NCBI GenBank assembly: GCA_027604185.1
Contig: JADGKB010000170.1
Location: 1 to 21,696, forward strand
Source of the DNA: Boothiomyces macroporosus
Lineage: Eukaryota > Chytridiomycota > Chytridiomycetes > Rhizophydiales > Terramycetaceae
Length of the DNA: 21,696 nucleotides
Reading direction: 5' to 3'
Shown: positions 1 to 21,696 of the stretch, piece by piece
Position numbering within the stretch: position 1 is the first letter of the stretch
Layout: every line of letters begins with the position of its first letter
Notes under the pieces: generated by a model
What the model saw: only the letters and a program-made list of their open reading frames with translations
Told to the model about the DNA's origin: nothing
Database searches by the model: none
Position numbers and translations under genes: made by a program

Positions 1-440
1 GTGAACGCCACCTTTAATCCTAAACCTCGTAATCCTATGGTGAACCAGGCTCTAATGGAAGACTTGTATTCGAAGAAGGACTAAGTAGTTTCAAGATTGT
101 TCCGGAACATCAATTGAATTATCCCAGTTTCAGCGGTTGGTATTATGAACACGATAATTTCTCTCATGCTGTATTTACCACCGCAATGATTCAGAAGTAT
201 ATTCCAGATTTCCCAATCAAGATGAATCAGCGAATAATTATTCCTGCAGAAAACCCTAAAAACAAAATTACTGAAGAGCGAAAGTGCTGGAATCAATTAC
301 GATTGGTATCTTTAGTTGATTTAAATGCTGCATACAAAAGCTTCTTTGAACTGTATGGCTGGAAAGTAGGGTTTGAACCAGGGTTTCCTATTAGAGTATC
401 AGGCGTAATTCGCTCGTGCATTGTATTAAAAAAAGTTTAA
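1..440 (+). CDS. 3' end of an unrecognised gene (partial, enters from the left edge)
   Basis: Partial CDS, join(1-28, 49-440), reading frame open at the left edge. The 1-28 frame and the 51-440 frame become one reading frame if a 20-nt GTAATC...CCAG intron at 29-48 is removed. This intron has a weaker branch element than the others here, so the junction is less certain. The visible C-terminal piece is about 139 residues, rich in aromatic residues (motifs FSGWYYEHDNF and LYGWKVGFEPGFP), and ends with a basic tail before TAA at 438-440. I see no membrane segment and no catalytic motif I can name, and I do not recognise the family. It is followed on the same strand by the first succinate/fumarate carrier gene, 149 bp downstream. 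Confidence 0.5.
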
Positions 441-589
441 TCTCAATTTCCTGGCTAAATAAAGCATTCTGAATTACCATTCATCTCTAGCAAAATAGTA
501 GTTGCCCCGTCTACATGACCTTCCATGTGAAATCAACGCGTGGCTGAAGGATGATCACCTAGTATACCATTGTCCTATTTTTTGCAATA

Positions 590-1688
590 ATGTCCACAAC
601 GGAAAAAAAGCCAAAGAAGAATCTAGCTATCCATTTGATCTCTGGGGGTATCGCAGGTTGCTGCGAAGCATTGGCCTGCCACCCTTTGGATACAATTAAA
701 GTCCGTTTGCAGTTGCGTGGTGAAAGACAAATTAGAACAAAGACTGCTGGGAGCGCAGCTGCAGATGCCGCAAAGGTAGCTACCATTAACGACAGCCAAA
801 AAGAGTTGGGTTTATTGGAACTGGTATTTCAATTGTGCAAAAGGAAGGATTTTTGTCCTTGTACAAAGGATTGGGAGCTGTAGTTACTGGAATCGTTCCA
901 AAGATGGCTATCAGATTCTCCTCGTTTGAATTTTACAAGGAAAAATTGACTGATAAGGAAGGATATATCTCCTCTGCAGGGATATTTTTAGGTATTTGTG
1001 TCTAATTTTAGCTGGTTTGGGAGCTGGTGCAACTGAATCTGTGATGGTTGTTACTCCTATGGTAATTTATTTTTAATGGCAGGATGTAATCAAAATTCGT
1101 TTGCAAGCCCAGAGACATTCCATGACCGATCCTTTGGATATTCCTAAATACAGAAATGCCGCTCATTGTGCGTATGTTATGGTAAAGGAAGAAGGTATCG
1201 CATCACTGTACAAGGGTGTGACTTTAACAATCATTCGTCAAGGTAAATATCTAGTTCATGCTAGGTACAAATCAGGCCGCAAACTTTACCGTTTATCAAT
1301 ACTTGAAGAAAGCTGCTTCCGAATACCAGCCTACTTTGGATGCATTACCATCTTATCAAACTGCAATTATTGGTTTTATTTCTGGTGCTTGTGGACCGCT
1401 ATTCAATGCACCAGTGGATACCATCAAGACCCGTATTCAAAAGAATCCATCCACTGAAAATGGATTCGTTCGTGTGGTCAAAATATCAAAGAACATTATC
1501 CAAAATGAAGGCTATGCAGCTTTCTATCGTGGTCTCACCCCTAGAGTTCTTCGTGTTGCTCCTGGACAATCCATTACCTTTATGGTAAGCTAAATTAATG
1601 CTAGGTCTATGAAAAGGTGTACAAATTCTTGTCTGAAATGAATCAAACAGTACATGTCGACGACTTGAAATCCATTAAAGATGAATAA
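590..1688 (+). CDS. SFC1: Mitochondrial succinate/fumarate carrier, paralogue A (six exons)
   Basis: Spliced CDS join(590-775, 796-991, 1012-1061, 1083-1242, 1265-1584, 1605-1688), 331 aa. It belongs to the mitochondrial carrier family (SLC25): six membrane helices in three repeats, each with the Px[DE]xx[KR] signature (HPLDTIKVR, TPMDVIKIR, APVDTIKTR). The closest family by eye is fungal Sfc1/Acr1, which exchanges cytosolic succinate for matrix fumarate across the inner membrane and links peroxisomal or cytosolic C2 metabolism to gluconeogenesis. The five introns are 20, 20, 21, 22 and 20 nt; removing them restores collinearity with the paralogue at 2385. Compared with that paralogue it has an insertion of roughly 20 residues in the first matrix loop, rich in Ala, Arg and Lys, just before intron 1. 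The apparent stops and frame breaks are introns, so I do not call it a pseudogene. The transported substrate is inferred from similarity only. Confidence 0.88.
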
Positions 1689-2070
1689 TAATCAAATATA
1701 ATATTTGTCAATATAATTCACAAAAGTCTTTATTCATGATTTGCCAATTAGAGTGGTGTTTAGGATAACATTCACCGCCTGGTTTCAATTCTTGTGTTGA
1801 ATAGCGATGTGATTTTACGAAACGCAGGTCTCTGATCCCATCTCTATTTTTTTGGTTTTGGCGATTAGCAGGTGATTAACCGCAACGTGAAGGTAACACA
1901 GTGATTGATAGAATATAGAAAGAATGCCTTAATAATTCAGTAGCACCGAGTCGTTCATCAAGAACGCGAAATATAACATAGTGAATAGGGAAACGGTTAA
2001 GCACAAATCTTACGCAAGTGTACCACTTGATGAAGACGATTTTAGCAGTAGAATTCAGCTATGTTTAATT

Positions 2071-2119
2071 TGATGAATTCCACTACAGTTGTTGATGAAT
2101 TCCACTACAGTTGTTGATG
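2071..2119. repeat. 22-bp direct tandem repeat, about 2.2 copies
   Basis: Two perfect adjacent copies of a 22-bp unit beginning TGATGAATTCCACTAC occupy 2071-2092 and 2093-2114, followed by the first five bases of a third copy (TGATG, 2115-2119). It lies in the spacer about 270 bp upstream of the second carrier gene. No function is evident; a replication-slippage duplication is the simplest explanation. Confidence 0.9.
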
Positions 2120-2350
2120 CATTGAAAAAACAAAAAAGCCTGATGGCAATTTCACATGGTTGCTTGCCAACACTCAAATTCACTGTTATTCACAATTTTT
2201 TAAATAATCCATAGTATCTAAAATATCAATAATGGAAAAATAATTGAGCTGACCTTTGTTACCCTGCGATGTTTCATTAGAAATGCCGCTTAAATCGGAC
2301 AAACATTCAAAACAGTTGGGCGCCGTTACCCACCTGATGATCATGCAAAT

Positions 2351-2358
2351 TATAAATA
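2351..2358 (+). promoter_or_regulatory. TATA-like element upstream of carrier paralogue B
   Basis: TATAAATA lies 27-34 bp upstream of the ATG at 2385. Position and sequence fit a core promoter TATA box if the 5' leader is very short. It is the only clear TATA box directly ahead of a start codon that I noticed in the window. Inference from sequence only. Confidence 0.4.
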
Positions 2359-2384
2359 CCCAGCGATTTTCAAAATAGAAACTT

Positions 2385-3335
2385 ATGTCAAAAGCACCGC
2401 AAAAGAAAAAGAACACTGCTGTCCACTTGGCTGCTGGTGGTATTGCTGGTTGTTGCGAAGCTCTTGCATGTCACCCTCTAGATACCATCAAAGTTCGCTT
2501 GCAACTGGCTAAAGCGCAAGCTAAAAGAGGGTTTATTGGAACTGGTATCGCCATAGTTCAAAAAGAAGGTTTCTTGTCCTTGTACAAAGGATTAGGAGCT
2601 GTCACCGCAGGAATTGTCCCTAAAATGGCCATCAGGTTCTCCTCCCTGGAATTCTACAAGGACCAGCTTAGAGATAAGCAAACTGGGTATTTATCTTCTG
2701 CTGGTGTGTTTTTGGCCGGTCTTGGTGCCGGTACTACTGAATCGATAATGGTTGTCACTCCAATGGACGTTATTAAAATTCGTCTGCAAGCACAAAGAAA
2801 CTCAATGACTGACCCACTTGATATTCCAAAGTATAGAAACGCCTTCCATTGTGCCTATGTGATGGTAAAGGAAGAGGGTGTCAGTTCTTTGTACAAAGGG
2901 CTTGGATTGACTGTTATCCGACAAGGAACAAACCAGGCTGCCAACTTTACCGTTTATGAATTCCTAAAGTCTAAATTCAGCGAAATGCAACCAACAGCAC
3001 AGTCTCTTCCTTCATACCAGACTGCATTTATCGGATTGATTTCCGGTGCTTGCGGACCACTTTTCAATGCTCCAGTCGATACAATTAAAACCAGAATCCA
3101 AAAGAACCCATCAACCGAAAACGGGCTGATCCGTGTTGTGAAAATCTCAAAGAACATCTTGCAAACAGAGGGCTTCTTTGCGTTCTACAAAGGATTGGTT
3201 CCGAGAGTTCTTCGTGTTGCTCCTGGACAGTCAATCACATTTATGGTAATTACAATTTAACTTTAGGTGTATGAAAAAGTATACAAAGCACTGTCCGACT
3301 TGAACAACCCAATTACCGCTGATATGACAGCTTAA
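2385..3335 (+). CDS. SFC1: Mitochondrial succinate/fumarate carrier, paralogue B (two exons)
   Basis: Spliced CDS join(2385-3245, 3267-3335), 309 aa, within the usual 290-330 aa range for SLC25 carriers. It has three mitochondrial-carrier repeats with signatures HPLDTIKVR, TPMDVIKIR and APVDTIKTR, and family-typical stretches such as YKGLGAV, PKMAIRFSS, TNQAANFTVY and RVLRVAPGQ that match fungal Sfc1/Acr1. Predicted role: succinate/fumarate exchange across the inner membrane. It is very similar to the upstream paralogue at 590 at protein level, with many synonymous differences, so the duplication is not recent. Only the 3'-most of the five introns in paralogue A is kept (21 nt, same position, after FM); the other four positions are continuous here. 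Without splicing the frame would end at TAA 3258-3260, a false C-terminus. Confidence 0.92.
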
Positions 3336-3413
3336 TATAATAGTTTTAATTTCCTACCGCAGTTAAAATTCAATTCCGTCCAATTCTTTTTCCTCGTGTT
3401 TTCACTGGCCAAA

Positions 3414-5107
3414 ATGTTGCAAAGATTCACACCAGTAGCGATAAACAAACTTGTATATTCAGCAAAAGTGAATTTGACGCTAACAAGACCGCGGTATCAG
3501 AAACTTGTTATTCCTGCTCCACAGCCGGTCATTATTAAACTGCAAGTAAACACCGCTATACTTTTCAAGCTTGTATCGGTAACTAAACAAATATTGAGGA
3601 TGGCTGTAGTGGGGATCGGAACTGCAGTGCGATTTACATCATTGGCAATATTATATGGACCGCTAATAATTACCTTCCCAGCTTGGCTATTGATGGAATA
3701 CCAGTCAATTATGGAAGACAAAGTGCCCCGCCTTTGGTGGGTCAAATGGATGGTATGGGTAATTGAAACCTCTGGACCAACATTTACGAAATTGGGCCAG
3801 TGGGCATCATCACGATCTGATCTATTTCCTCAATATGTTTGCACAGAGTTATCTGAGCTACAATCCAACAATAGAGCGCATTCATTCATACACACTAGAA
3901 ACACAATAGAAGACAATTTTAACGAAAAGCTTGAAGATGTATTTTCAGAGTTTGAACGGAAGCCGATTGGTGTAGGAGCAATTGGACAAGTATACAAAGC
4001 GAAATTGCGAGAAAGTGATCAGTATGTGGCAGTTAAAGTGCTGCATCCCTACGTCCGGTATTTAGTAAATGTAGATTTGGATATTATGAAATTTTTTGCC
4101 ACAGTTATCGAATACACAATACCCAACTCTCACTGGCTCAGCTTACCTGAAGAGGTAGATATGTTTTCTTCAATGATGAGAGCTCAACTAGATCTCTCCG
4201 TGGAGGCTCAACATCTGGTGCTGTTTGGTGAAAACTTTGACAAGTGGGACTCTGTTGGGTTTCCTCAACCAATTCAAAAATATGTTAGAAAAGACATACT
4301 TGTTGAAAAATGGGTCGATGGAATTTTAATGGAAAAGTTCTTAAAGTGGGGAGGCAGTTGCTATGATAAGCAAGTGGCAACAATTGGATTGACTTCATTC
4401 TTGGTATATCAGCTTTAATCTAGAAAATGCTGATCCTCGATAATCACTTACATGCTGACCTACATCCTGGGAATATTATTATATCTTTCCAATCAAAATT
4501 TGATCCAGAGTTATTCTTGGATGATACACATATTGACAGAATCGCAAAATCAAAAAACAAAGAAGAATGGAAGCAAGCACTATTAGAGATTCATCAAGAC
4601 TACAACCCTTACCTGTATTACATTGATGCAGGCTTAGTCTCTCAATTATCTGTTCAACACTTTTCTAATTTCATTGATTTGTTCAAAGCAATCACTGATT
4701 TTGATGGTAATTTGATTTCAAAGTTGATGGTGGAACGCTCCAGAACTCCAAACACTGTCATTGACTTTAAAGGCTTTTCTGAAGCAATGAAACAGTTTAT
4801 GATTCGGATAAAGGAAAACGCATTTGCATTAAAGCATATTCAGGTGACTGAAATCCTTACATTTGTATTTGATATTGTACGCAAGCATCACGTAAAAATC
4901 GAAGGCGATTTTGCAAATGTAGGGGTAGCCATCATACTGCTCGAAGGTGTTGGAAAACAGCTTGAGCCTGATCTTGATTTGCTTAAAGCAAGCGTTCCTT
5001 TCCTATCGAAGGCAATCAAAAACAGAGTTCAAGGAGATGTCTCAAAAACTGAACTGGGAGTTTGGAATTATCTAAAGATCACCTTTTTATCATCAATATT
5101 TAAATAG
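3414..5107 (+). CDS. ADCK2: UbiB/ABC1-family atypical kinase, ADCK2-like
   Basis: Spliced CDS join(3414-4403, 4424-5107), 557 aa, one 20-nt intron. ABC1/UbiB atypical kinases act at mitochondrial membranes in coenzyme Q homeostasis. Visible hallmarks: a basic N-terminus compatible with mitochondrial import, a membrane segment around residues 65-95, the family-specific KLGQ motif (126-129), GAIGQVYKA in place of the Gly-rich loop, VAVKV with the ATP-site Lys near 208, HADLHPGN (340-347) as catalytic loop, and DAG (398-400) in the metal-binding position. DAG and the C-terminal stretch around FANVGVAIILLEGVGKQL resemble animal ADCK2 more than COQ8/ADCK3, and the A-rich loop typical of COQ8 is not seen. 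Splicing joins TSFL to KMLILDNHLHADLHPGN exactly where the family is continuous. I chose the first ATG of the frame. Its stop is 7 bp from the stop of the convergent VOC gene. Confidence 0.88.
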
Positions 5108-5114
5108 AAACAAC

Positions 5115-6900
5115 TTATATTGATTTACTCTTTTCTCTCGATATAAACGTTTCCCTTTGCAGATCATCTCTTTCTTTAACTTTCTGGGGTTTGGGTTTGA
5201 CTCTAGGTTTTCGTCCAAACTGAAGCAAATCCTGGGAGCCAAAAGGCGTAGAATCGTTCTCCGCGACGGGCATACTAATAATCTTTCTATCAAACTTTCT
5301 TCCTCCTTTCATTAGAGGCTCTTCTGTTGGCGGGACTGGCTTATCGACCGGGTCTTTTAGCAAATGTTGACCAAATCCTTTTAGACAAATTATTGCCCCT
5401 TCAGACAAATTCCTAGAATGACCCCCAAGATGATTCAGATTAATAATGAAATCGAATTCGTCTTTAGCCGCAGCTTCAATTGGCTTTTGAATAACAGACA
5501 TAGATCTTCCTCCATTCCCTTTGTTTGGTAAGACAGAAGTTTCAATTTTCTGGCAAAACAGCTCCAGATAGATTCCTTCATTAATCTTTTCTGAAAATCT
5601 AGCACACACGCCGGCCTCTAATGTTAGGTAATCTTACTTCCAATCTTTAATCTAACTGGATCCCATTCAAATTCTAGCTTTTCTTGCTTAAATCTATTGA
5701 TCATTGCCTCTATACTTGGGACCTCAAATCCTAATATAAGTTTGATGTACCAATTCCAATGAGTGGAGATGTATCAGGATTGTGCGATGTGATTGCCTGT
5801 CCCGTATCGGCATTGCTTACTTCCGTGACACATACACAACAAGCTTGTGTTCTCATATCGTTTCCTAGCCAATAAAAGACGGTGTTCATCAATCCAATTA
5901 CTAAATCATCCATATCTACAATTCTAAACCCAGAGCCTTTCGCCAAAGCGTTCTTTACTGTCTGATTAGCACCAACTTTTCTAATGTTTACTTCAGGAGG
6001 ATCGGGTAACAAAATTGGGTCCTTGTCTTTCTTTTCTCTTGGTTTATTTACCACTCTCTGACGAAATATGGACTCGTAAAGTTGAGCAGTTCCGTCTGCA
6101 TTTGCAGTAGCAATAGAATAATATCCTAATCTAGCAAACCACTGTTTTTTACTACTATCATTCAAGTAGCTGTCAGGCATTTCCACAAAGCGGATTTGAA
6201 TATTGTTGGGGTCCCTCATTATTGCCAGTTTAACACCATCAAAATTCGTAACATCCATTTCCACTTCATAGTTTTTCGAAGCCATTCTCTTTACTAGCCT
6301 TTGCAAAAAGTGGACGTATATAACCAAGTATTCATATTGATGTCCACTTTCAGTAGATTTCCCTTTTGACGGATCTGGAATTTTTCCCTCTGCAATATTC
6401 TGTTGCTCAGTTTTGGTATATTGCAGTTCTTGTGAATACTGCTTTTAGCTTAAACTTACTTTTAAATCTTCTTCAAACAACAGCATTACTCTGTTATGAA
6501 ACGAGGTTCCAAAGGATGATCCGCCAAAAGACATGGCAAACACTCGTCCATTAGCAGCGACATGCAGTTTGGATTTATGCAGTTCTACAGTGGAATCTTT
6601 TTCTAGTGTTCCCTTCTTGAAGATATTGTCAAAATTAAGCGCGGGGTTCTTGACAGCCTGAGCAGTATGCATCGTAGGTGGTTTAATACATTCTTGATAG
6701 CCTTCAAATTCCACATTCATTCCACATGATTTATAAAAGTCTATTGTTTTATTCACATCCCGACACCGAAATCTAAAGTACCTCATCTTTGAAAATTCGC
6801 GGATTTGATTTTTTGCCTTTTTAATCATTGATGCTGCTGCTACTGTAGCTTTATCAGTTTGTGGTTTCGCACTCCTTTGTGGGTGTTGGATAGTGTTCAT
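5115..6900 (-). CDS. VOC/glyoxalase-like protein with repeated modules
   Basis: Spliced CDS complement(join(5115-5617, 5638-5730, 5751-6438, 6460-6900)), 574 aa; introns of 20, 20 and 21 nt, each joining frames cleanly. The N-terminal part (about residue 39 on) opens with a strand-helix pattern, MRYFRFRCRDVNKTIDFYK, typical of the betaalphabetabetabeta modules of vicinal-oxygen-chelate proteins (glyoxalase I, bleomycin-resistance, dioxygenases). Similar module starts follow later, one near FARLGYYSIATANADG and one near IGIGFEVPSIEAMINRF, followed by a strand ending in YLELF. This suggests two or more VOC folds in tandem. The C-terminus is a basic, Pro/Lys-rich tail. Metal ligands cannot be assigned with confidence, so enzymatic activity is unproven; substrate unknown. 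It lies tandem to SNU114 (36 bp between that stop and this ATG). Confidence 0.72.
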
Positions 6901-6931
6901 TAACGCGACGAAAAAAATGAGAATTAGATAT

Positions 6932-6937
6932 TTTATT
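6932..6937 (-). terminator. AATAAA poly(A) signal overlapping the SNU114 stop
   Basis: On the minus strand the last base of the TGA stop (6937-6939) is also the first base of AATAAA. The hexamer sits in the 36-bp gap before the next same-strand gene. Its role in polyadenylation is inferred from the eukaryotic consensus. Confidence 0.4.
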
Positions 6938-9900
6938 CAACGATTTAGAAACACTCCATCTAACTTTGCCAAGTCAAGAATCTATGTTAAACAAGTATTA
7001 CCATTGGGTCATCAAAGAATTTGGTAATGGAGACATCCTCACTCAAACCTTTACGTCTTCTGGTTTTCACCAAAAAGTCTCTTGCAAGATGAGGAGCAGG
7101 ACTTGGCTCTAATGGTCGCAGGGCTATGGTTTTGTCCAATGGGTCACCAGGAACAATCTATTTTAAGTTCAGAATTACCTGCCAATGGTCAAATATTTGT
7201 TGACAGAATGCTTGTCCTTGTGTGTGTGTTCTTAAATCAGTCTCAAACCCAAAGGAGTCAATGGCTGGAATCAACGCCTTGATTGTATACAATGGCGATC
7301 CAGGTTTAGGCAAGTCTTGGGTTACATGCCCTCTTCTTCTCGCTAAAACAGTATATACCGATTGGATACAGTCTGACGGAGCTTGAATTTCAACGTAGAA
7401 AATAGGTTCCATTAATCTAGGGGTTGCCTGAAATTAACTTAAATTACCATCAAGAATGAAGAATAGCAGACTCTTCTAGCAGTTGGGATTACTTGACCAC
7501 CACCTCGGTAAATAGGTTCTTCAGCAATAGTAGCATCCAATATTCTAAACTTTAAATTTCGAATTGCTAAGTTAATGCAGAATTACGTTCATCAGTTAAT
7601 GGGCCTTCCCTAGTTGCCCATTGGAACCCTTGCTTAATTGAATCTTTGATCGAGAATAACAACTTTTTGTTTGTTTCTGCTGGAAGAGTATCGTTGATTA
7701 GCATGTTTGGACCATTTTCGTCAGGTCCAAATGCCCAAATATTTCTGGCTGCAAGGATATCCCATTCGTATTTAGAGACAAAATGTTCAGCGAGAACTTT
7801 TGGAGGTGAATTGATATTGACTTTATAGTTTTCAATATCTTCGGCAATACCTCTTTCAAGCGGTTCGCAAATCATTGTGATCTTATTCTTCTTGTTTGGA
7901 GTTTCTGCGTAGCATTTAATCTGGGATACTTCTACCACTGTTTCACAGAATCTAACAACTGGGTCAGCAATTTTGATATCAATCTCTGCATACAACTTTC
8001 GCAAATCATGCATCACACAATCCAAGTATAGTTCTCCAGTGCCTAATAAAATATGCTCTCCAGATTCTTCAACTTTGGTGGACAGAATTTGGTACGATTT
8101 GTTTACTTTACGCAGTCCTTCCAACATTTTTGGCAGTTCAGTTGGATTAACAGGCTCCACTGCTACTTTTAAAACTGGAATTGTGTTGAATCTTAGGGGC
8201 TTGAAAATATAGACTGGATCATCTTCATCTTCATTTGTATCAGTGATGGTAGCTGTTTTGATAATTGTACTATCAACTCCAGACAAAAGGACCCAGTTAC
8301 CGGCAGATGCAGATTCAACATTGATCTTGTATCTTGACTGATATACTGCGATATTAGATACCGCATGAACTGCCATGTCTTCTTCATCATCGGGCGAATA
8401 GCCTTCTCCCAGAACTCTAACTGACTGCCCTTTGTTCAAAGTACCAGACAAAATTCTTCCAAACGCATCAAACGATAGAACATTGTCTGCATTGTACAAT
8501 TTCACAATTTGAATCATCAAAGGGCCTTCAGGATCACATTCAGTCATTGCAGTTCCGTATTTGCCTTTTAGATCTCCTGAATACATTCTTTCAATCTTGG
8601 TTTTTGCACTTTCAACAGGTGATGGAATCAGGTTTACACACATGTCTGTTAAGCCATTCAAGTTGCCAAAGAATTGATCAAACACCAATCGCAGCAATGG
8701 TTTCATATTCAATTTGTAAGCACTATTCTTCAAGACAATCCCGAGCGAGGCAAGTGTTTCCCTTAACTCTTTTGGATCCTCTCCAAGCACTTGTCCGTAA
8801 AGCTTGTATAAGGGCTCTAAAATAAAGTGACTAAATGTGCGCAGTCTTGGTTCTCCTTCTCTCGGAGCTTTTCTGAAAGATCTTTTTTCGCTATCAAAGA
8901 AAATATCTCCCCACAATCTTCTAGCAAAAGCATCAACATCGAAAGATTCTGGATTAAATAATAACTACCTTCGGAATTTTCGCAATATTTGGCAGCAAAA
9001 GATTTTAAAGAAAAACACCAGCCCATCTCAGTGGATCCAAAGAGTACATTTCCCTTTTCTGGTGATAATCTGATGTCGGATATTTTGAATAGGATTGAAT
9101 TCACTTCCTCGATAGTATGTTTGAGCTTGAAATAAGCATCTTCAGGGGGTAATTTAAGTTCCAAAATCAATCGATCTACTTTGTTGACCATCAAAAAGAA
9201 GGGAATGTTTTCATTTACCAATTGTTTGATAATATTTTCCGTATTTGCCATCACCTATCATTAACTGCCCTTTTAAAAAACAAATAGCTGAAATATTTGC
9301 AAACTTACCCCTTCAACGGCATCTACCAAAAGAATTGCACCATCAGCAATTCTAAGTGCAGCAGTCATTTCATCAGTGAAATTCACATGTCCTGGCGTAT
9401 CAATAAAGTTCAACAAGTGCGATTTGTGCTTGAGATTTTGCATTACAAAGGACATTGGCATGCTCTTGATACTGAGGCCACGATCTCTTTCCAATAAATG
9501 AACATCTGTGTATCTTAGTGGTTTTTCTGCATCCATAAATATTTCATGGGAATGCGATACCAGCATATCCATAAATGAAGTCTTTCCATGATGTAAATGT
9601 CCTACCAATGCAACATTCCTTATTAAATCAGGATATTTCATTAGATCTACAAGAAACTCTTTCTTGAATGCAGTCTCTGGCAATCCTTTTTCTTGAACAA
9701 ATGACAGAGCGGTTTTAATTGGAGCAATAATTGGTTGTGTAAGCGGCTGGGTATCTTCTTCTTGAACCAATGTTTCTACTCCAGGACCGTATATTTCTAA
9801 TGCTGAGGGATAGTATTTTTTATCTTCGTGAAGGACAATTTGATTGGCAAAGTTTTCTGTGTTAATTGAAAGATACCATCGTGAACGACAACTTCATCCT

Positions 9901-10027
9901 CCTGAGGTTCATCACCGTAATCAACTTGCGGTTCTTGTCTTTCTGGCTCTTCCTCCACTTCACTATCTTCATCTTCTATATCCGGTCCAATATAATTCCC
10001 AAATTCATCGTACAAATCGTCGTCCAT
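6937..10027 (-). CDS. SNU114: U5 snRNP GTPase Snu114 (EFTUD2), complete
   Basis: Spliced CDS complement(join(6937-6981, 7002-7157, 7179-7427, 7448-7566, 7587-8948, 8969-9254, 9309-9856, 9877-10027)), 971 aa, almost the same length as human EFTUD2 (972). Snu114 is the EF-2-like GTPase of the U5 snRNP that controls Brr2 helicase during spliceosome activation and disassembly. Visible: the conserved N-terminus [11 protein letters not shown] followed by an acidic stretch, [10 protein letters not shown]-loop GHLHHGKT (136-143), DTPGH (203-207), NKVD (257-260), then EF-2-like domains II-V including [47 protein letters not shown] and [12 protein letters not shown]. Introns are 20, 54, 20, 20, 20, 21 and 20 nt. 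The last, at 6982-7001, restores the conserved DDPM...LAK ending; without it the protein would stop at 6987. The 54-nt intron is an outlier. Confidence 0.97.
9255..9308 (-). other. 54-nt intron of SNU114, the only long intron in the window
   Basis: On the minus strand it runs GTAAGT ... TTAATGATAG. Removing all 54 nt joins the conserved EG|VMANTE segment of the G domain. It contains an internal 21-nt GTAAGT...TTTCAG stretch at its 5' end (9288-9308) and a 27-nt GTTTTT...GATAG stretch at its 3' end, separated by six bases. Retention introduces an in-frame TAA. Confidence 0.8.
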
Positions 10028-11513: not shown

Positions 11514-11930
11514 ATGACTCCTGAAGAATTAAAAGAAAAGGCAGTTGAAGCATTCAAGGGCCCGGCTAACCCAACTGAAGTCAGTGTGGTAACAATGATT
11601 TAAATATCAGGCAGCTCTATTTGGTGCCGCTTCTGGGTTCGCCTCAAAAAAAGTATCCAAAACTGCTGCTTTCTTTGTGGGATTAACGTTTATGGGATTG
11701 CAGGTACATTTAAAGTAATGCAGGGGTTGTCGCATGCAAAAGTTATTACAATTAACTGGGATAATTTGGAAAAAATGGCAATTGAAAAGCTGGATGCAGA
11801 TGGTGATGGCAAATTAGACTCGAAAGACTTGCAACTATATGCGAATAGATTTGTGCACAATTTGTCCAACGATATTCCATCTTCTGCCTCCTTTATTGCT
11901 GGATTCTGGTTAGGGTTTAGATACGGATAA
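11514..11930 (+). CDS. FUN14: FUN14-domain mitochondrial membrane protein, paralogue 1
   Basis: Spliced CDS join(11514-11588, 11611-11703, 11724-11930), 124 aa; introns of 22 and 20 nt. FUN14/FUNDC proteins are small integral membrane proteins of the mitochondrial outer membrane; FUNDC1 acts in mitophagy and contact sites, while the function of fungal Fun14 is less clear. Seen: first hydrophobic hairpin with AALFGAASGFASKK and SKTAAFFVGLTFMGLQGL, then a stretch with a complete 12-residue EF-hand-like loop (DADGDGKLDSKD, residues 80-91), then the family's C-terminal FIAGFWLGFRYG. No FUNDC1-type YxxL LC3-binding motif near the N-terminus. A second, longer paralogue lies at 20412-20911. The orphan membrane protein at 11993 starts 62 bp downstream. 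Confidence 0.85.
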
Positions 11931-12878: not shown

Positions 12879-13360
12879 ATGAATCGCTTCATTACCAGAC
12901 AAGCATTATCAACCAAATTCGCAGGTAATTCACAAAATAACAACCAGCTAGATTCAGTTTGATCAGAAATATTCAACCAACCATCGCTCGCCGTCACTAT
13001 TCCGACCTTGACCCAGCAGACAAGAAGGATTATCAAGCTTATGTAGATCAATGGCAAGCTCATTTCAAAAATGTCGATGATGATTTTGAGCTCGAAAGAG
13101 GATTAAACCACATTTTTGCCGCTGATTGGGTTCCTTCAGTTGAAGTTGTCAGTGAAGCTTTGAGAGCTTCCCGTCGTTTAAATACCTTTGCAACTGCTGT
13201 TCGTATCCTCGAAGGTCTCAAGGACAAGGCATACAAGAAGGAACAATACGATGCTTATATTCGTGAATTGAAACCGCTATTGGATGAATATGGAATTGTT
13301 GAAAAGGCTGATTTGGGAGAATTCCAAGTAATTAGAGACAGAACTCCATGGACTGAATAA
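12879..13360 (+). CDS. COX6: Cytochrome c oxidase subunit Va/VI (COX5A; yeast Cox6)
   Basis: Spliced CDS join(12879-12924, 12948-13360), 152 aa. Nuclear-encoded, matrix-facing subunit of respiratory complex IV. The first 35 or so residues (MNRFITRQALST...RNIQPTIARRHYS) are Arg/Ser-rich and free of acidic residues, a classic mitochondrial presequence. The mature part holds the family pattern: YVDQWQAHFKNVDDDFELERGLNHIF, VPSVEVVSEALRASRRLN, AVRILEGLKDK and YIRELKPLLDEYGI, the alpha-helical repeat core typical of Cox5A/Cox6. One 23-nt intron lies in the presequence. Of three nearby AG acceptors only the first (12947) keeps the frame, giving A-ARFSLIR. Presence of this subunit indicates an organism that respires through complex IV. 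Confidence 0.93.
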
Positions 13361-13610
13361 TTTTGTTCCAAATACATATTTTTGGTTTTATAATTTGTTT
13401 TTCAACCCTGAGAATAGCCCTGAATCAATTCTCTAGTAGTGCTCCAGAACCTTGGAAGAGTCTGTTGATAGCCAAGTAATATTCTATCCGCCGGTTGTTG
13501 CTTGGACACACGACTGAAGGAGCAACGCAGCCCCACAGTTCATAAAGATAGGAATGTGATGTCTGCCATCTTAATCATTTCATTGTGCCACCAACTTTTT
13601 TGACTTTTTA

Positions 13611-15354
13611 ATGGAGAACGAAACGCAACCATTAATTCAAAAGCCAGCAACCTCAAGGAAACGTACCCTTTCAACTGCTTTGAAAGTTTTGATTTTCGCC
13701 GCTATCTTGGCAGTTGCTGGATACTGGTATTATTTCACTTCTCCTGTCGATACTTCAAAGTATACCAATTCCAAAATCTTGAAGACTCCTTCAAACAAAG
13801 AAATTGAACTTTACTGGAGCGTTGATGAAAAGGCAAATGAAATTGAATTTGCTGTAGTCTCAAAGAACGGGGCAACATGGGTTGCTATAGGAACCTCCGA
13901 TGCTGGTAAGTCATGTTAAAACCAGGTGGTATGAAAGGAGCAGATATCTGGCTGGGATACAAAAAGAACGACGAGTTTATCCTTGAAGATAGGTTTTCCG
14001 AAACATATGGATATCCAGTTCTAGATCAACAGCAAGATTTACAATTGTTGTCGTGGTACCAATCGTACTTTACCACCGCTTTTACTTTTAAAAGAGCACT
14101 TGAAAGTTGTGATGATCAAGATGCAAAGCTAGTAACTAAACATCCAATGTGGTTTGTTTTTGCTATTGGGGTGTCCAATGAATTTACTATGCATGCCCCT
14201 GGAGATAACGCTCAAATTTATCTCGATCTAGATGGTCACTTTTTCGATGACTACGTCGATGTGCCTTTGGATGATGATACTGTTGAATACTCAATGATTG
14301 CTCCAGGTATTTTCCTTTAATGTTAGCTTACGAAATTCCGGCCGAAGATACCGTGTACTGCTATTCCTATTTTGATATCTCAAAAGACCTGACTGAAAAA
14401 CACCAAGTGGTTGTTGAAGACATTTCTATTGCCTCAAAGTATGTTCATCATATGGTTGGGTACTTGTGTGACGAACCACTTCCTGAATTTGAGACTCCAA
14501 ACACCCACTTTTGCAATTACTATCGTCCAGTCAATCCAGTAATCAACTACAGCCCTCGCTGTGGAGCAATTCATTTTGCTTGGGCAAAGGGTGGTGTTAA
14601 AAAGACTTATCCGGCAAATATGGGAAAACCCATCGGACCTGGAGATCTTCCAGTAAAGTATCTCATTTTGGAAACTCATTATTCCAATCCTTCGCTAACA
14701 CCTGGCCAATACGATCCAGGCTCTGGATTTAAGCTCAAGATTACAAAGAAACTCCGTGAATTGGATGTAGGTGTTTTCACTGTTGGAGTCCCACAAAATT
14801 ACATGTACTTGCCACCCGGTCAGTTTGCTTCAGTTGAAGGAGAGTGTGGTACCAAGTGCACAATGAAGGACAGTATTCCTGAAACCGGGTTAAATGTACT
14901 TTCTTCTCAATTGCATATGCACCGAAGAGGCAAAGCAATGTCTACCAAGCATATTAGGGATGGGGTTGAACTATCGCCACTGCCATCAATGGAGTACTTT
15001 GACTTTAACTACCAATCATACAACTTTGTTCCAAAAGACCAAGAAAAGATTATGCGTGGTGATCGATTGATTACCAAGTGCACTTACGATACCACAAAAG
15101 ACACTGAAATGGTAGTAGGCGGATGGTCTTCTGAACAGGAAATGTGTTATGCATTTGTAGAATACTACCCTGCAATGCCAAATTACTCTTCTTGCTTGCA
15201 AATTCCTGACCTTGAAGCATTCCCAAAGAAGGCAAAGAAAAGCTACACTATGATTTGCGATGCTGGCGACGATGATTTGGACCCAGTAATCAAAGCTGGA
15301 CCAAAGGATCCTTTTGTCAAGTACCAACCAGATTCTGTTTGCTATGCAAAATAA
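13611..15354 (+). CDS. DOMON plus copper type II monooxygenase (DBH-like/MOXD1-like)
   Basis: Spliced CDS join(13611-13905, 13926-14306, 14327-15354), 567 aa, introns of 20 and 20 nt. Single N-terminal membrane anchor (about 24-42) after a short basic cytosolic tail, consistent with a type II secretory-pathway protein. A DOMON domain follows (about 60-215; strands WVAIGTSDAG, GADIWLGY, MWFVFAIG). Then the two-lobed copper, ascorbate-dependent monooxygenase domain: CuA-type ligands HH at 266-267 (YVHHMVGY) and His 343 (LETHYSNP), CuB-type HxH at 422 and 424 (QLHMHRRGKAM) and Met 498 (QEMCYAF). All expected copper ligands are present, so the enzyme looks active. This is the architecture of dopamine beta-hydroxylase and MOXD1; the natural substrate is unknown. 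The stop is embedded in AATAAA. Converges on the CDF gene, 60 bp away. Confidence 0.9.
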
Positions 15355-15355
15355 A
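15350..15355 (+). terminator. AATAAA containing the monooxygenase stop codon
   Basis: AATAAA spans the TAA at 15352-15354. A second AATAAA occurs at 15386-15391, 32 nt after the stop, and may be the functional one. Confidence 0.4.
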
Positions 15356-15413
15356 GGTATCGATATTTCGTTTTTATGCACTTTCAATAAAATTCAAAAG
15401 CAACTATAAAGTC

Positions 15414-15419
15414 TTTATT
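15414..15419 (-). terminator. AATAAA containing the CDF transporter stop codon
   Basis: On the minus strand AATAAA spans the TAA stop (15415-15417). It faces the signals of the convergent monooxygenase gene, so the two 3' UTRs probably overlap. Confidence 0.4.
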
Positions 15420-16539: not shown

Positions 16540-16848
16540 CCCACAAAAAGAAAAAAAAATATGGAGATGGATTTGACTTTTGCCAAAAGAATAAGCGCTG
16601 ATTAACGATATTTTGATATCTTATATTTTGGACTCAAAGCTATTCCAACACGATCCGCCTTGGAAACTCTTGGAAATTCAGAATAATAAAAAGTTGAAAA
16701 AGTGCCTTCGATAGCTCTGTATTTACAATGGGTATTCAAGATTTGATTTATAATACCCACGCAGTTAGTATTAATTTGGGTAAATTCTTTGCTCTTCATT
16801 TTTTAACCACAACAGTTAAATTGCGTAATACAACCCTTGAACTAAAAC
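16540..16848. other. 309-bp divergent promoter region (CDF / PCNX4)
   Basis: Upstream sequence shared by two divergent genes. An A-rich run (AAAAAGAAAAAAAAATATGG, 16544-16563) lies just beyond the CDF start codon. No RNA gene, repeat or open frame I can support. Confidence 0.5.
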
Positions 16849-19800
16849 ATGGCGGCACCATTACTTAATGAATACAAATATGAATTCACGCTCAGAAGAT
16901 TATTATTGACAATGTCTGGAGGGCTGCCGATTGGTAATCCTACTTTAACCAAGCACCACGCGAAACACCCTTTGTCCATGCGTGTCTGGTGTTCTTGATT
17001 TCCCTGATAGTATTCATATTACCAGCAGCAGCAGGAATTATTGTATATGAAATATATCAAGCGAATATTCCCACTGGGGTGTTGATAGTTGTTGGAGGTA
17101 GTTATCCTTAACCAAGTTGCGTATCTTTTATTACATGTGATTATTAGGGGTTTGGAATTCATATGCCAACCAGAAGATGAAATTCAAGGTTCTAGGACGT
17201 TGTTTGAAAGTGAAAATGACCCACCACTTGAAGGGAATCCATTTGCAGCCTCTTTCAAGTATATTTTTGTTCAGAAATATCAACATCGCCAACTATTTCC
17301 TATCATATTGAAAATAGTGGTCTCTGTGTTTTTGGTTGAGCTTGGAATGATTTATCCACCACTTGCATATGTTCCATTAATGTAACTCTGTTTTAACATA
17401 GATTCGACAATCAGATACTATTTTTCTTGGTTAACGTTGGTGTTTGGTGTGGACTGTGTATCGCAAACTGGTGCCTGATTGCAAAGAACCCAGTTGAACC
17501 AAATTCCTATCATACACATGATACATTTCGAATTGACGATTTCACGAGAGCGTTTCATTTCGGATTAGGTACCCTAGCGGTATATTTAGTAATATCTTTT
17601 TAACAAGTCCATTCCATCACAGGTGATAGCTGTCCCAATGATAATTGTGACTATTCATTCGTTATTACCCGTAATGGCGGGCATAGGTGTGCTACCAAGC
17701 TTTAGAGTGACCTTGCTGCTTATCTTTGAAAGGTACAACTCTGTTTTGTATGGATCTTCTCAATTCATGTCTGACACGGTTGGATTTGTATACGCTTTCT
17801 TGAACACAACTATTGCAGCGATAATTTTTATACTGCTGTGGAACTCAAAGCAACAGCCGAATAGTTCTATTGGGTATCTAGTAGCTTCCGTTACTGGAGT
17901 GTTGTTAAGTAGTAGATTGTTTATGGACCTGATTTCCCTAAACTATCCTGGATCCAGACGAACGAATTTTGCGCTATTTACACAAATAACAAAAAATACA
18001 ACTTGGAAATTTAAAATTTCTTGGATCTATTTCGTCCTTCGAATGGTATTTGTAGGAATTTTATCACACGAATACATTGAAAACTTTAAAAATTCACAAA
18101 TATCCACGGACAGTATAATACCGATACTAGGTGGGACTTTGATTGCCAGAAAAACATTCAGAGAAGTGCAGCAAGTCTACATTCCAACAATGCTACCAAT
18201 AATACGGAATCCTTTTGAACGGTCTGGTGTATTTACTGGTTTCTTTGGTTTTTTCCATTCAATAACTTACTATATACTTCCGTATCTATCGCATGCATAT
18301 ATTCTTTTGCGATTTTTACCAGAGCCAATCCCAAACTCAGTGCCTGCTTTCATATGGCGTGCAGTGGTTACCTGTAGATCATTCACAGTAATTTGGAATA
18401 GGGTAGAAAATTCAGCTACTTCCCTTTGCATACTATATTTGGTGGAAACCAATCTACCAGGCAATACACCATCAAATTTTGTTGATTTTGGGACAAAGTT
18501 TCTCTTGGTAGAATTGTGTGTAAATATTGTATTTAGAACGACAGAAAAGTTTATTTATTGGATTATAGCTCTGAAGCACTTTTTGTTTTACAAGAAAGAA
18601 AGACATCAACTGTGGTACCTCATTTTACCAGTAACTTTGATGATTTCCCCAATCACAATAATACTCTCTAGTATAATTGATGCTCCAGCAATGTTATATT
18701 TAGGACTGCCGTTACTAATAACAAGCTTTCCAAGACCAGAAAAGTTCTGGGAGGAGCTAAAAACAGATTATTCATCAGGAAACGACTCTCCGATTTATTC
18801 TTCAATGGCACCATCTTTAATGGATGTAATGGCAAATGGTGTATCTAAAGGGAAAATTCCATTATCACATAATGGGTCTGAATATTTAGTGCGGTTTGAA
18901 TCAAAGATTCTACTAGTCCGATTGGTAGAAAATTGGTATGAGGGGGCTTCTGTATATATAACGGGAACAGAACTGGAACCTACTAGTTGCCATTCGCTGG
19001 AAGGCACTGAGGTAGATCATGTCTTGGATGCAGCGTTGGACGAGAGACATATATTCAACCAGAATTTATTGCACACTCTACTAGTAATTACTATTAATAT
19101 TAGCCAGTATCTACAGTAAGAGGCACTGCGTATTCAGAAACAAATCAAATAACAACTGGAATAATAGACGACCAAAATTTTTCCAAACCACTTGCCCAAA
19201 CATTCATGAAATTCTTGATTTTCTTTTTCTTTCAAAAGTTGGATTTGGAATCCATTCTTTCGTACAGAGATGTTCCAGCCAACAGAGCATTGATTCAACA
19301 CTATCGCGCAGCGTTTCCTGTCAAATGGTTTGACTTGGTAAAGCAATATTCAATCCAATACAGTAAAAGTGCAGTAGGGATTAGTTTTGGCCGACATTTG
19401 GATATTGATGAAAGTATTATCACCATAATTTTGTCTGGATACATAATTATGCTGGGAATTAGTAATTGATCATTAAAGCAGCTTCTCCCCAACCTGTCAA
19501 TCTAACTACAACAATGATATATGACCTGTATCGTGGACAACTATCTTATAACGTACACCAAGAAGCTAGATTATGGATACAGCATCAAGCCAGAAAAGCA
19601 TTTCGGGCTATTTGTATCGAATCATTCAGATACACTATAAAATATTTGTATGACATCAAAGTATTGGATGAACCTATTCAGGATATGGAAGAGTTGTATA
19701 AAACACTTTCATATATCAGTGCGCAATGGTTAGTTAGTGTGGACTTGAATCAACAGATAGCAGGCGATCCGACCAATCCAACTGTTAGATTCCAGAAAGC

Positions 19801-20286
19801 CATAACGAATGGAGTAGCTGGAATATTCCAACTCTCTGTAAAGAAAAGCGGTGACCCGTTACGAGTCAGATTGCTGATAAAGAATGAAACCAGCAAATTC
19901 AAAATCGCAAAGATGAATATGGAAGCATTAAAAGTACTAGAATTGCTAAAACAGGGAATTTGGGCTAATCTGTTGTATGAACTATTGTATTTCACAAATG
20001 ATGACGATGAAAGGTTCAGCATTCAAGCCCATGCAGTAACTGAATACTAATGCAGAAACTATTACGCAATTTAACGGTACAGACATCACACCCGCCATTC
20101 GGGTATCCTCTTTGGTTAGCACCAGCAAAGTTAGATTATGGTGGTGGCAATTTCTTGGCAAGTACCTTTTCATTCCTTCAATCCAGTTCGAATGCCAGAG
20201 TCGAGCCGACCGGCTACCATGGGAAGAAGAATGAAGTCAGAGGGCATCATCAAACCATCAAGAGAATTTACCCAGATAATGCTTGA
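16849..20286 (+). CDS. PCNX4: Pecanex-like protein 4 (PCNX4), eight exons
   Basis: Spliced CDS join(16849-16933, 16954-17097, 17117-17381, 17402-17588, 17608-19083, 19104-19461, 19482-20035, 20056-20286), up to 1099 aa (human PCNX4 about 1170). Pecanex proteins are large multi-pass membrane proteins of the secretory pathway; PCNX4's molecular role is unknown. Seen: conserved N-terminus PLLNEYK, two hydrophobic blocks totalling about 12 helices, the FPRPxxFW turn after the last helix, the pecanex-C hallmark TELEPTSCHSLEGTEVD, and the C-terminal module AFRAICIESFRYTIKYLYD ... LLYFTNDDDERFSIQAHA ... LLRNLTVQTSHPPFGYP. Introns are 20, 19, 20, 19, 20, 20 and 20 nt; three have AAG acceptors. The tail beyond GYPLW (from about 20115) has no family match and untypical codons and overlaps another ORF, so the true stop is uncertain. 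Confidence 0.88.
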
Positions 20287-20347
20287 ATATAATTTGTATG
20301 CCATTGTTTTCGGTGTTTTCTTTGGTGGATCAAAAGCAAGCCACTGA
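20192..20347 (+). CDS. Possible small single-span membrane protein overlapping the PCNX4 3' end
   Basis: ATG 20192 to TGA 20347, 51 aa, in a different frame from the PCNX4 C-terminus; an in-frame ATG further upstream (20138) would add 18 residues. It has a hydrophilic, basic N-terminal half (MPESSRPATMGRRMKSEG) followed by one hydrophobic segment (YNLYAIVFGVFFGG) and a short polar end, KASH. Its codon choice looks more like the genes around it than the overlapping PCNX4 frame does. Size and layout recall small mitochondrial membrane subunits, but I cannot place it in a family. It may instead be a spliced alternative last exon of PCNX4 (25-nt GTACC...CCAG at 20162-20186 would connect them). 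Uncertain. Confidence 0.4.
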   Translation: MPESSRPATMGRRMKSEGIIKPSREFTQIMLEYNLYAIVFGVFFGGSKASH

Positions 20348-20411
20348 CTGCCGAAGCCTTTTTCATTAAATTTCAATTCTCTCCTCATAAAATATATCTC
20401 ATAGACACACA

Positions 20412-20911
20412 ATGTTTGGTACTCGAATGCTGAGATAGGTTTTACGTTCTTTGCTCAAAAGCCCCAACCAGAAATAAAGAAGGAGCCGCAGTCATTCGCA
20501 GAAGTATTCAACATTGATCTGGACAAACCAATTACATTGGACCTAAAGGAATTCCAAAAAGATTTTCAAAGCGGAATGGATGGTCCTATTGAACTAAAGG
20601 ACCTTGGGATCGCCTCTGTGTTTGGAGGAAGTGCTGGATTCGCTTTGAAAAGATTAACAAGGACCGCTGCGTTCTTTGTAGGATTAGCAGCTACAGGAAT
20701 TCAAGGTTTAGCTTATAGCGACATTATCAGAATCAATTGGCCCAAAGTAGAGCAGCTAATGGTTACTCACTTTGACCAGAATGGCGATGGTAAATTTGAT
20801 CAAGATGATATCACTTTTGGAGTATCAAAAGTAATGAGAAAATTGGGCAGCGACTTTCCTACCGCATCCGGATTCGCAACAAGTTTCTGGCTGGGATATA
20901 GATATGGCTAA
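20412..20911 (+). CDS. FUN14: FUN14-domain mitochondrial membrane protein, paralogue 2
   Basis: Spliced CDS join(20412-20418, 20439-20911), 159 aa. The first coding exon is only ATGTTTG (7 nt), followed by a 20-nt intron; without splicing the ATG meets a TAG after eight codons. The N-terminal extension (about 55 residues, hydrophilic) is absent from paralogue 1. The FUN14 core follows: ASVFGGSAGFALKR, RTAAFFVGLAATGIQGLAY, then a complete EF-hand-like 12-residue loop (DQNGDGKFDQDD, residues 115-126) and the C-terminal hairpin ending GFATSFWLGYRYG. Expected location is the mitochondrial outer membrane, by family knowledge. If the 7-nt exon is wrong, the protein could start in an unseen upstream exon, or at the internal Met 49 or later, which is unlikely because the family core begins near residue 55. 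Confidence 0.8.
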
Positions 20912-20913
20912 GA

Positions 20914-20932
20914 CTATCAATTTGTTTTATAT
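20914..20932. repeat. 19-bp direct repeat, copy 1
   Basis: CTATCAATTTGTTTTATAT occurs here, just after the FUN14 paralogue 2 stop, and again at 21672-21690. Both copies are followed shortly by ACCCTC. The two copies flank the small orphan gene at 21130-21426. Confidence 0.8.
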
Positions 20933-21129
20933 TTTTAAATAAACCCTCATATCATTCTTTTGGTGATTGGTTTTGTAGTCCCTGACCCTATAAGCCTCAT
21001 CGCAATAGTCTAATGCATAATCTTTATGCACTGGACCAAGTCTGACAGCATTTTTTTTGAAATTCTAATTTTAAGTTATGCAAATAAACTTTTGTGCCGT
21101 TGTTTCATGTTAATTTTTTTCACCAAAAC

Positions 21130-21426
21130 ATGGACAGCGTTGGAAAATTGATAATGGCAGTAGGAGGGACATTGATAGGGATTTCCTACGTAAGGAAGTA
21201 TTGGCAGGAAACAAGAATCAAGCTGTTTGGAAGGGCAGTTGTGGTTGGAACAACTGTTCTTCCAGAATCAATTCCAGTTGAAGGGATTATATTTGATACC
21301 TTGGTAAAGGCGACAGTATGTAATATCTCAGCTAGCCCTGCAAATGTAACTCTTTTGTAATGATAGACTACAAGCGAAAAAGATGCCAACTCTCCTGGAA
21401 AAGACTCTGGATATCTCTCCATGTAG
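21130..21426 (+). CDS. Small orphan protein with N-terminal hydrophobic segment
   Basis: Spliced CDS join(21130-21345, 21367-21426), 91 aa, one 21-nt intron in phase 0 with in-frame stops. I do not recognise it. The N-terminus (MDSVGKLIMAVGGTLIGISYV) could be a membrane anchor or uncleaved signal, followed by RKYWQETRIKLFGR, a basic amphipathic stretch, then a beta-rich region AVVVGTTVLPESIPVEGIIFD and a polar Ser/Asn/Lys-rich tail. The length is short, so a missed downstream exon is possible, but the spliced end at TAG 21424-21426 is clean. Unspliced, the frame would stop at 21360, six codons into the intron. Downstream sequence to the window edge is AT-rich. Confidence 0.55.
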
Positions 21427-21696
21427 TTTATATGTTTAATAAACTTTGCTATATTCTATGTACATTCTGCCGTATGCACTCTCCAGCTCTCATTTAAATT
21501 GAAATAATTCAAGTGCCAGAATGATTAGAATCAAAAGGAAGCCGCTCTTACTTTCTCGTATTCTTGCATCTGTTCAAATCCCTTTAATAAAAATATGCCA
21601 TCCATGAAACCACGATTGCTCTAAACAAGCCAATGATTTGTATCGGTACTCCCTCTCAAGTATATAACAGTCTATCAATTTGTTTTATATACCCTC
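21427..21696. other. 3' flank to the window edge
   Basis: AT-rich, no gene I can support. The minus strand has a short open stretch at 21490-21573 ending in a hydrophobic tail, but no start or acceptor fits it. Contains copy 2 of the 19-bp repeat at 21672-21690. Confidence 0.4.
21672..21690. repeat. 19-bp direct repeat, copy 2
   Basis: Identical to 20914-20932; see that entry. Followed directly by ACCCTC at the window end. Confidence 0.8.

Follow-up and report, generated by a model that had tools for sequence, protein, structure and literature searches.

How short can an intron become before an ordinary nuclear spliceosome no longer removes it? The question is raised by contig JADGKB010000170.1 of Boothiomyces macroporosus (GenBank assembly GCA_027604185.1), whose 21,696 nucleotides (nt), referred to below as the window, hold genes interrupted again and again by segments of about 20 nt that begin with GT, end with AG, and restore a conserved reading frame once they are taken out. 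An earlier reading made from the letters of the window alone (the sequence-only reading) had listed 32 such introns, all but one of 19-23 nt and all of the form GTA..AG, had supposed them to be genome-wide, and had called the finding striking should the organism prove to be an opisthokont. It is one: B. macroporosus belongs to the Fungi (Chytridiomycota, Rhizophydiales, Terramycetaceae). Here we report that the observation in the window is confirmed and holds beyond it, and that the short segments are, with high probability, U2-type spliceosomal introns of this fungus, with a mode of 20 nt and nearly all between 18 and 23 nt, removed by an ordinary major spliceosome.

We placed 30 introns in the window, 29 of them 19-23 nt long and one of 54 nt (two of 19 nt, 19 of 20, five of 21, two of 22, one of 23 and one of 54), and all 30 start with GTA and end with AG. 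Our gene finder supplied 25, a second pass over parts of the window four, and one (17589-17607) was read by eye and then checked for frame; a further 21-nt candidate from the second pass, 19934-19954, is probably exon and was left out of the count. The sequence-only reading had counted 32, the difference being two more of 20 nt, and had not specified positions. Comparisons with proteins support 18 of the 30, and the remaining 12 were placed by coding bias, frame and site consensus (three in the gene at 5115-6900, six in a Pecanex-like gene, and those beginning at 12925, 20419 and 21346).

The gene for SNU114, the 116 kDa protein of U5 (971 amino acids; 6937-10027, minus strand), contributes seven of the supported introns, at 9857-9876 (20 nt), 9255-9308 (54), 8949-8968 (20), 7567-7586 (20), 7428-7447 (20), 7158-7178 (21) and 6982-7001 (20), and all seven fall within a single alignment to human hSnu114 (1338.7 bits, query residues 1-967). 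The 54-nt intron on the minus strand at 9255-9308, with a GTAAGT donor, is the sole longer one in the window. The deposited protein HK103_002176 (P0001) is 100% identical to our spliced product over 81% of the query; its model reads through the 20-nt intron at 7567-7586 (minus strand) and ends at 788 amino acids. The next 21 matches have 66-72% identity, and those of them that are named come from chytrids in the broad sense. Across the SNU114, carrier and VPS4 searches, the other chytrids named among the matches include Boothiomyces sp. JEL0838, Globomyces, Gorgonomyces, Kappamyces, Entophlyctis and Batrachochytrium. A mitochondrial carrier gene (590-1688, plus strand) contributes five more introns, at 776-795 (20 nt), 992-1011 (20), 1062-1082 (21), 1243-1264 (22) and 1585-1604 (20). 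Its spliced product is identical over 331 amino acids to the deposited B. macroporosus protein HK103_002171 (P0121), from which all five introns have been removed, so that the public annotation already reflects part of the finding, as far as we have seen without discussing it.

To look beyond the window we turned to the assembly as a whole (15,203,306 bases in 216 contigs, the window being contig C170) and formed a test set of 243,270 bases from the window, 20 stretches elsewhere and eight search loci. The gene finder combined a coding model with GT..AG ends, gave all intron lengths from 10 to 300 nt equal weight, and used no site matrix. This flat-prior finder called 123 introns, 56 of them 18-23 nt long, while nine control dinucleotide pairs in place of GT..AG gave 8, 5, 7, 1, 10, 12, 4, 3 and 7 in the same range; because the coding model had by then been refitted to gene models with GT..AG introns, that pair enjoyed a slight advantage. 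At every other length GT..AG showed no excess over the controls (8 versus 7-28 at 10-17 nt, 4 versus 5-17 at 24-29 nt, 16 versus 26-35 at 30-60 nt, and 39 versus 40-55 at 61-300 nt). An initial run without controls, for which the coding model had learned from long open frames alone, had already put 54 of 116 introns at 18-23 nt or one nucleotide below that range, 52 of them at 18-22 nt. Frameshift errors in the assembly, or GT..AG segments that restore a frame by accident, would make the short class an artefact of a simple gene finder of our own, and the 1-12 short segments of the controls do mean that some single calls will be false, but the 56 calls against them, the agreement of junctions with human SNU114, EF-G and DYNLT, the branch and acceptor consensus common to the introns, and the concurring annotation of the five-intron carrier gene leave this explanation next to no chance.

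Slightly better, and still very improbable, is the view that the short class is a minority and that ordinary introns of 40-100 nt dominate the rest of the genome. It can point to two clear and well-placed longer introns, one of 54 nt in SNU114 and one of 46 nt in ISY1, each opening with GTAAGT, and to the size of our sample, which covers 1.3% of the genome and a few loci. Against it stand the flat-prior counts just given, which at 30-60 and 61-300 nt do not rise above the controls, and a donor-specific scan that found 0-4 long introns per donor type with 0-1 in controls; on these two grounds we rejected a hidden longer class. On reading, several of the longer flat-prior calls hold a 19-20 nt intron within them. 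We then trained a site matrix on the 56 short introns, and with it and a mild length term the 153 gene models of the refined finder contain 283 introns, of which 278 measure 16-24 nt. In the 20 stretches outside the window (196 kilobases of 15.2 megabases), 223 of 230 modelled introns were 18-23 nt long and only seven fell outside that range, a narrow mode below about 25 nt that matches the 56 of 123 obtained under the flat prior, where the rest stood at control level. All 20 stretches carry introns, from 2 to 22 each, at 1.55 per kilobase of coding sequence; the word genome-wide, a guess from one contig, stood up to this test. Extrapolation would put the whole genome at about 17,000 introns, an estimate that includes some false calls and misses 21-nt introns without a stop codon.

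Homology carries the short introns beyond the window as well. The 16 most intron-rich gene models included 14 from the sample, and seven of these were examined. Domain or full-length matches enclose 39 of their 45 introns, or 36 of 45 when three introns in the propeller of the PLAA-like gene, where the models scored under the cut-off, are dropped. Ten introns of 19-23 nt lie within the alignment of mitochondrial EF-G to its human counterpart, and 29 of 35 lie within Pfam matches in the other six genes: the PLAA-like gene, VPS4, and four that by domain we take to be a protein kinase, a MECR-like gene, V-ATPase subunit a and a PDK-like gene. Two 21-nt introns of mitochondrial EF-G without stop codons were recovered only with a laxer setting, and reading suggests another such candidate in the protein kinase. 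Throughout SNU114, EF-G and DYNLT, removal of the GT..AG segments restores a conserved frame whose junctions can be read through against the human proteins.

What do these introns consist of? In the 278 introns of 16-24 nt, with the branch adenosine taken as the best-scoring site, lengths are 19 (59), 20 (122), 21 (61), 22 (23) and 23 nt (8), with five others, and phases 0, 1 and 2 occur 122, 96 and 60 times. The branch adenosine stands at +14 (113) or +15 (126) in 239 of the 278, and 5 nt (119) or 6 nt (123) before the last G in 242, and this fits the picture drawn in the sequence-only reading, of donor, branch and acceptor packed together almost without gaps. The branch core reads T in 98%, A in 83% and A in 99%, figures inflated by the choice of sites by score, and this consensus is the counterpart of the GUAGUA of U2. 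The donor is weaker: GTA opens 92% of the introns, so that the uniform GTA start claimed earlier stands for the window and not outside it, while +4 is A in 59%, +5 is G in only 20% (56 of 278), +6 is T in 62%, and the mean match to U1 is 5.7 of 9 positions. An AG precedes the donor in 28%, versus 6.5% in coding sequence. When the site score is set to retain 250 of the 277 introns, 45 decoys also pass in 185 kilobases of spliced coding sequence, which indicates that most of what marks an intron lies within it; the test is partly circular, in that the same score helped to call the introns.

Two other properties were considered and set aside. In-frame stops occur in 56 of the 61 21-nt introns, versus 58% in shuffles, and we rejected a bias towards stop codons (of the kind that would engage nonsense-mediated decay) because the finder reads stopless segments as exon, which biases the count. 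A burst of Introner-like copies was likewise rejected, with four near-identical pairs (at most two mismatches) versus 3.0 in column shuffles. Pairs at up to 3, 4 and 5 mismatches number 45, 178 and 512, above all 100 shuffles (means 24, 105 and 379), an excess that the two branch registers may explain.

The machinery appears conventional. A survey of the small nuclear RNAs U1, U2, U5 and U6, which had been proposed as a check on the sequence-only reading, recovered all of them except U5, to which we return below: U2 in two copies (142 and 135 bits), U6 (62 bits) and U1 (68.8 bits, just below the cut-off of 69.5). U1 holds ACUUACCU, also given as AUACUUACCUG, GUAGUA is intact in both U2 copies, and U6 carries ACAGAGA. 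The two U2 genes, C80:60682 and C178:9607, differ mostly in their 3' half, as judged by eye. Among the proteins, Cwc25, Isy1 and Yju2 were found, and SF1, U2AF65 and Yju2 match their families. The SF1-HH match (114.6 bits) has one in-frame stop within the exon-wise alignment, and its gene model is split by introns of 24, 22 and 21 nt; U2AF65 reaches 230.7 bits when searched exon by exon, short of the 310.3 required of the whole protein, its spliced product matches the human RRM1-RRM2 and UHM chains, and its gene model has five introns of its own of 19-21 nt. Cwc25 begins with MGGGDLNLKKSWHP, identical to human. Taken together, the short introns, their branch spacing, and the U1, U2 and U6 RNAs and splicing proteins point to an ordinary U2-type spliceosome that very probably removes introns of 20 nt in the nucleus of a free-living fungus.

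A spliceosome modified for the purpose, with branching factors reshaped against a clash in the tight lariat as has been proposed for the ciliate Stentor, is an unlikely alternative but a more serious one than the two already dismissed. In its favour, the N-terminus of Isy1, up to residue 33 of our model, does not align with human ISY1, much as in the Stentor report (PMC9505925), though the modelled start is uncertain and the Pfam model matches from its position 4. What tells against it is that Cwc25 keeps the very start whose glycine plug is reported lost in Stentor, that U2AF65, SF1 and Yju2 match their families, and that the branch adenosine sits at +14 or +15, not at +10. With the plug intact here and lost in Stentor, where the branch adenosine is at the 10th position, a donor-branch distance of 14-15 nt would seem to require no such loss.

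Several further results weigh against an ordinary spliceosome acting on a genome-wide class of short introns. The refined set was called with a matrix trained on introns of 18-23 nt and a mild length term; the flat-prior tests and the protein alignments are free of such training. Without the length term the matrix put 235 of 322 calls at 18-23 nt and 87 outside at the strictest of three settings, with more outside at laxer ones; we take these scattered long calls for noise. Decoy sites in exons are not depleted (45 in sense, 42 in antisense and 50.6 in synonymous shuffles), and selection against them was accordingly rejected. The Isy1 model aligns with human ISY1 only from residue 34. Finally, the search for U5 RNA was negative, although such a negative is no proof of absence.

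With these points in view, we propose the following account for an ordinary major spliceosome at work on introns of 20 nt. Each intron consists almost entirely of a donor (mostly GTA, with G at +5 in one in five), a YTAAY branch, and an AG 5-6 nt past the branch adenosine, and would be recognised as a single unit, that is, by intron definition. Because the contacts of U1 and U2 would nearly touch, the fixed spacing between donor and branch could supply the specificity missing from the weak donor. Neighbouring introns would be excised one after another, with the consequence that exons of 2 nt, or even of 0 nt, could be tolerated.

Such exons do seem to occur. In VPS4 (locus L020:3718-3757, equal to C25:33718-33757) two 19-nt introns flank a candidate exon of two nucleotides, CC, with which the protein reads YGPPGTGKS, its Walker A motif, as in the Globomyces protein P0199; when the CC is removed with its flanks, 40 nt in all, the frame is lost. 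Among the best 120 of 5781 matches to VPS4, identity never rises above 79% and the name Boothiomyces does not occur, and that search skips proteins shorter than 0.55 of the query; the lack of a near-identical protein among those matches is what one would expect if the deposited model were broken or missing. The VPS4 proteins P0194 and P0199, from relatives, both break off a little way past a shared KWT/IWT site close to the C-terminus, as would happen were an intron there read through. At the start of ISY1 (L043:1259-1299), where the gene start is uncertain, there is a possible 1-nt exon between two 20-nt introns.

Other introns appear to abut with no exon between them. At locus L050 (C1:220938-220975, among the arrays fetched) two abutting 19-nt introns occupy 38 nt, and their removal, together with one further 19-nt intron placed by reading, gives a gapless alignment of 87 residues to human DYNLT1. 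Three different abutting 19-nt introns at locus L049 leave HNAWDNVE when removed, a string that belongs to METTL2, although what the search confirms is a METTL6-like stretch that lies wholly downstream of this junction; at locus L048 three abut, the first two identical, and the frame resumes after 57 nt; a fourth candidate, locus L051, is ambiguous on reading. The two three-intron arrays, of 57 nt each, lie at C6:28632-28688 and C8:114397-114453. Duplication of an identical unit was rejected as a general origin, since, among the four places read, identical units were seen in the C8 array alone.

To see how common such neighbours are, we searched the genome with two partly overlapping patterns. 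The pattern for two introns 0-8 nt apart, in certain registers only, has 25 matches, ten of them with zero gap, and none when reversed; the pattern for zero gaps alone has 31, with two when reversed, and three of its sequences occur twice, in duplicated stretches. Uniform placement would give 1.05 and 5.2 zero gaps where 10 and 31 are seen; once the tendency of introns to follow an AG is allowed for, the expectation rises to roughly 4.5 and 22 and the excess is modest. Nor is there a shortage of gaps of 1-7 nt (15 matches, 14 distinct, versus about 1.05 per gap length), and nothing here suggests selection against very small exons. The zero-gap list suggests abutting introns with a zero-length exon at about 26 further places.

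The alternative that survives best is that abutting introns are single introns of 38 or 57 nt whose inner sites go unused. A zero-length exon leaves an identical mRNA under either reading, and introns of 46 and 54 nt do exist; yet every unit is complete in itself, with donor, branch and acceptor spaced as usual, the 25 and 31 genome matches face 0 and 2 for the reversed patterns, and the 2-nt exon of VPS4, as we read it, is impossible with one intron. We give the single-intron view rather less than an even chance. The stronger form of the preferred reading, in which the spliceosome acts as a device of fixed length that reads donor and branch at 14-15 nt, is indifferent to exon length and lets introns land anywhere, so that abutting 19-nt arrays would be spliced recursively and the 2-nt VPS4 exon kept, is offered tentatively, its chances lying only a shade under even. 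Ultrashort introns as such are established in other lineages (PMC10245619, PMC5014332, PMC9505925); the putative arrays of two or three abutting introns and the 2-nt exon are new beyond them.

How does this compare with known systems? The haplosporidian relatives mentioned in the sequence-only reading are presumably the mikrocytids. What that reading says of nucleomorph introns, and of shorter ones in Stentor and these parasites, agrees with PMC10245619, where the lengths are 18-21, 15-16 and 16-17 nt. Chlorarachniophyte nucleomorphs, with more than 800 introns of 18-21 nt (PMC10245619), have a similarly narrow and populous class near 20 nt; a nucleomorph is the relic nucleus of an endosymbiont, whereas B. 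macroporosus has a fungal genome of 15.2 megabases with an estimated 17,000 introns. In Stentor, too, the whole intron is donor, branch and acceptor, and the most abundant intron, which starts GUAAUU, lacks the +5 G; there, however, the branch adenosine occupies position 10 or 11 (the 10th in 15-nt introns) and Cwc25 is without its glycine plug (PMC9505925), while B. macroporosus has +14 or +15 and an intact plug. Mikrocytid introns are equally uniform at 16-17 nt (224 in M. mackini), but these are parasites with 17-19 splicing proteins identified (PMC10245619), whereas every factor searched for here except U5 RNA was found. Paramecium likewise has only ultrashort introns reported, longer at about 25 nt, with selection on stopless introns of 3n length (PMC5014332), and a 23-nt intron of Trichomonas has been called one of the shortest known (PMC12316389). 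By the names of its identical proteins B. macroporosus is a chytrid fungus that shares no common descent with the nucleomorph, heterotrich or mikrocytid lineages, so the likeness is one of function only.

For complex arrangements the nearest parallels are two. Fungal stwintrons are nested spliceosomal introns removed by consecutive U2 reactions (PMC9024468), but in a [D1,2] stwintron the inner intron splits a splice element of the outer one, whereas here complete units stand head to tail. The APC11 gene of Arabidopsis has a 1-nt exon in a 422-nt interval, for which sequential removal of the flanking introns was proposed (PMC4674806); like it, the VPS4 exon is too small for exon definition, though it lies between two 19-nt introns and is known from sequence only. 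Among the literature matches listed (titles and abstract openings, outside most subscription journals) no report of ultrashort introns in chytrids appeared, and the available text of Lim et al. (PMC8476143), who reconstructed intron density in 263 fungi, does not mention such a class. Relatives of B. macroporosus may share it. Of seven proteins retrieved for comparison, two environmental carrier proteins, P0167 and P0160, end in ITFM-VLFIDVGL and ITFM-VYIFYLGL exactly at the shared carrier intron, and of the lengths tried (15-23 nt) only 19 nt lets these tails be spelled as a retained GTA..AG intron followed by known exon; random tails fitted some length of 17-23 nt in 9 of 20,000 trials. From these protein letters, both relatives would carry 19-nt introns at that site.

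The shared site is seen again in the window, in a carrier paralogue (2385-3335, plus strand) with one intron, 3246-3266 (21 nt), which, on reading of both copies, sits where the first carrier gene has its fifth and final intron; the paralogue lacks counterparts of the other four, so that the two paralogues have one of five introns in common through loss or gain of four. The remaining plus-strand genes are an ABC1-kinase-like gene (3414-5107; intron 4404-4423, 20 nt, within the ABC1 Pfam match 149-430), a FUN14-family gene (11514-11930; 11589-11610, 22 nt, and 11704-11723, 20 nt, inside the Pfam match, the first near the domain edge), a COX5A/COX6 gene (12879-13360; 12925-12947, 23 nt, upstream of the COX5A domain match) and a DOMON/copper monooxygenase gene (13611-15354; 13906-13925 and 14307-14326, both 20 nt, inside Pfam matches, the second near the domain edge). 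They also include the Pecanex-like gene (16849-20050; 16934-16953, 20 nt; 17098-17116, 19; 17382-17401, 20; 17589-17607, 19; 19084-19103, 20; 19462-19481, 20), whose weak Pecanex_C match (30.9 bits, cut-off 27) does not cover the introns; a second FUN14-like gene (20412-20911), alike by eye to that at 11514-11930, with intron 20419-20438 (20 nt) after its first few codons; and a small gene (21130-21426; 21346-21366, 21 nt) placed by coding bias and site consensus. On the minus strand, a gene with no Pfam match (5115-6900) has introns at 6439-6459 (21 nt), 5731-5750 (20) and 5618-5637 (20), on the same basis. An NCBIfam search with two proteins gave no match. Elsewhere in the assembly, three features of C20 recur at an offset of 45,067 bases (38207/83274, 66642/111709 and 74242/119309), probably a large tandem duplication; C49 and C100 have two features in common at the same 1,595-base offset, and C74:71149 and C106:1433 one identical 43-base match, as duplicated or haplotype contigs would.

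The interpretation of the sequence-only reading is therefore supported. Its practical side is that gene models of B. macroporosus break at ultrashort introns, as when the deposited SNU114 loses its last part. Work on how small an intron can be has drawn on relic nuclei, ciliates and reduced parasites, for which a spliceosome that has itself been pared down or changed is easily invoked. B. macroporosus approaches the same limit as an opisthokont with canonical-looking U1, U2, U6, U2AF65, SF1 and Cwc25, a machinery closer to the human and yeast spliceosomes of known structure, and it makes testable what the minimal distance between donor and branch is, whether U1 and U2 can bind together over it, and whether it is only under about 14 nt that the Cwc25 plug has to be lost. 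In this way the finding hints at how small a stretch of RNA may suffice for an ordinary splicing machine.

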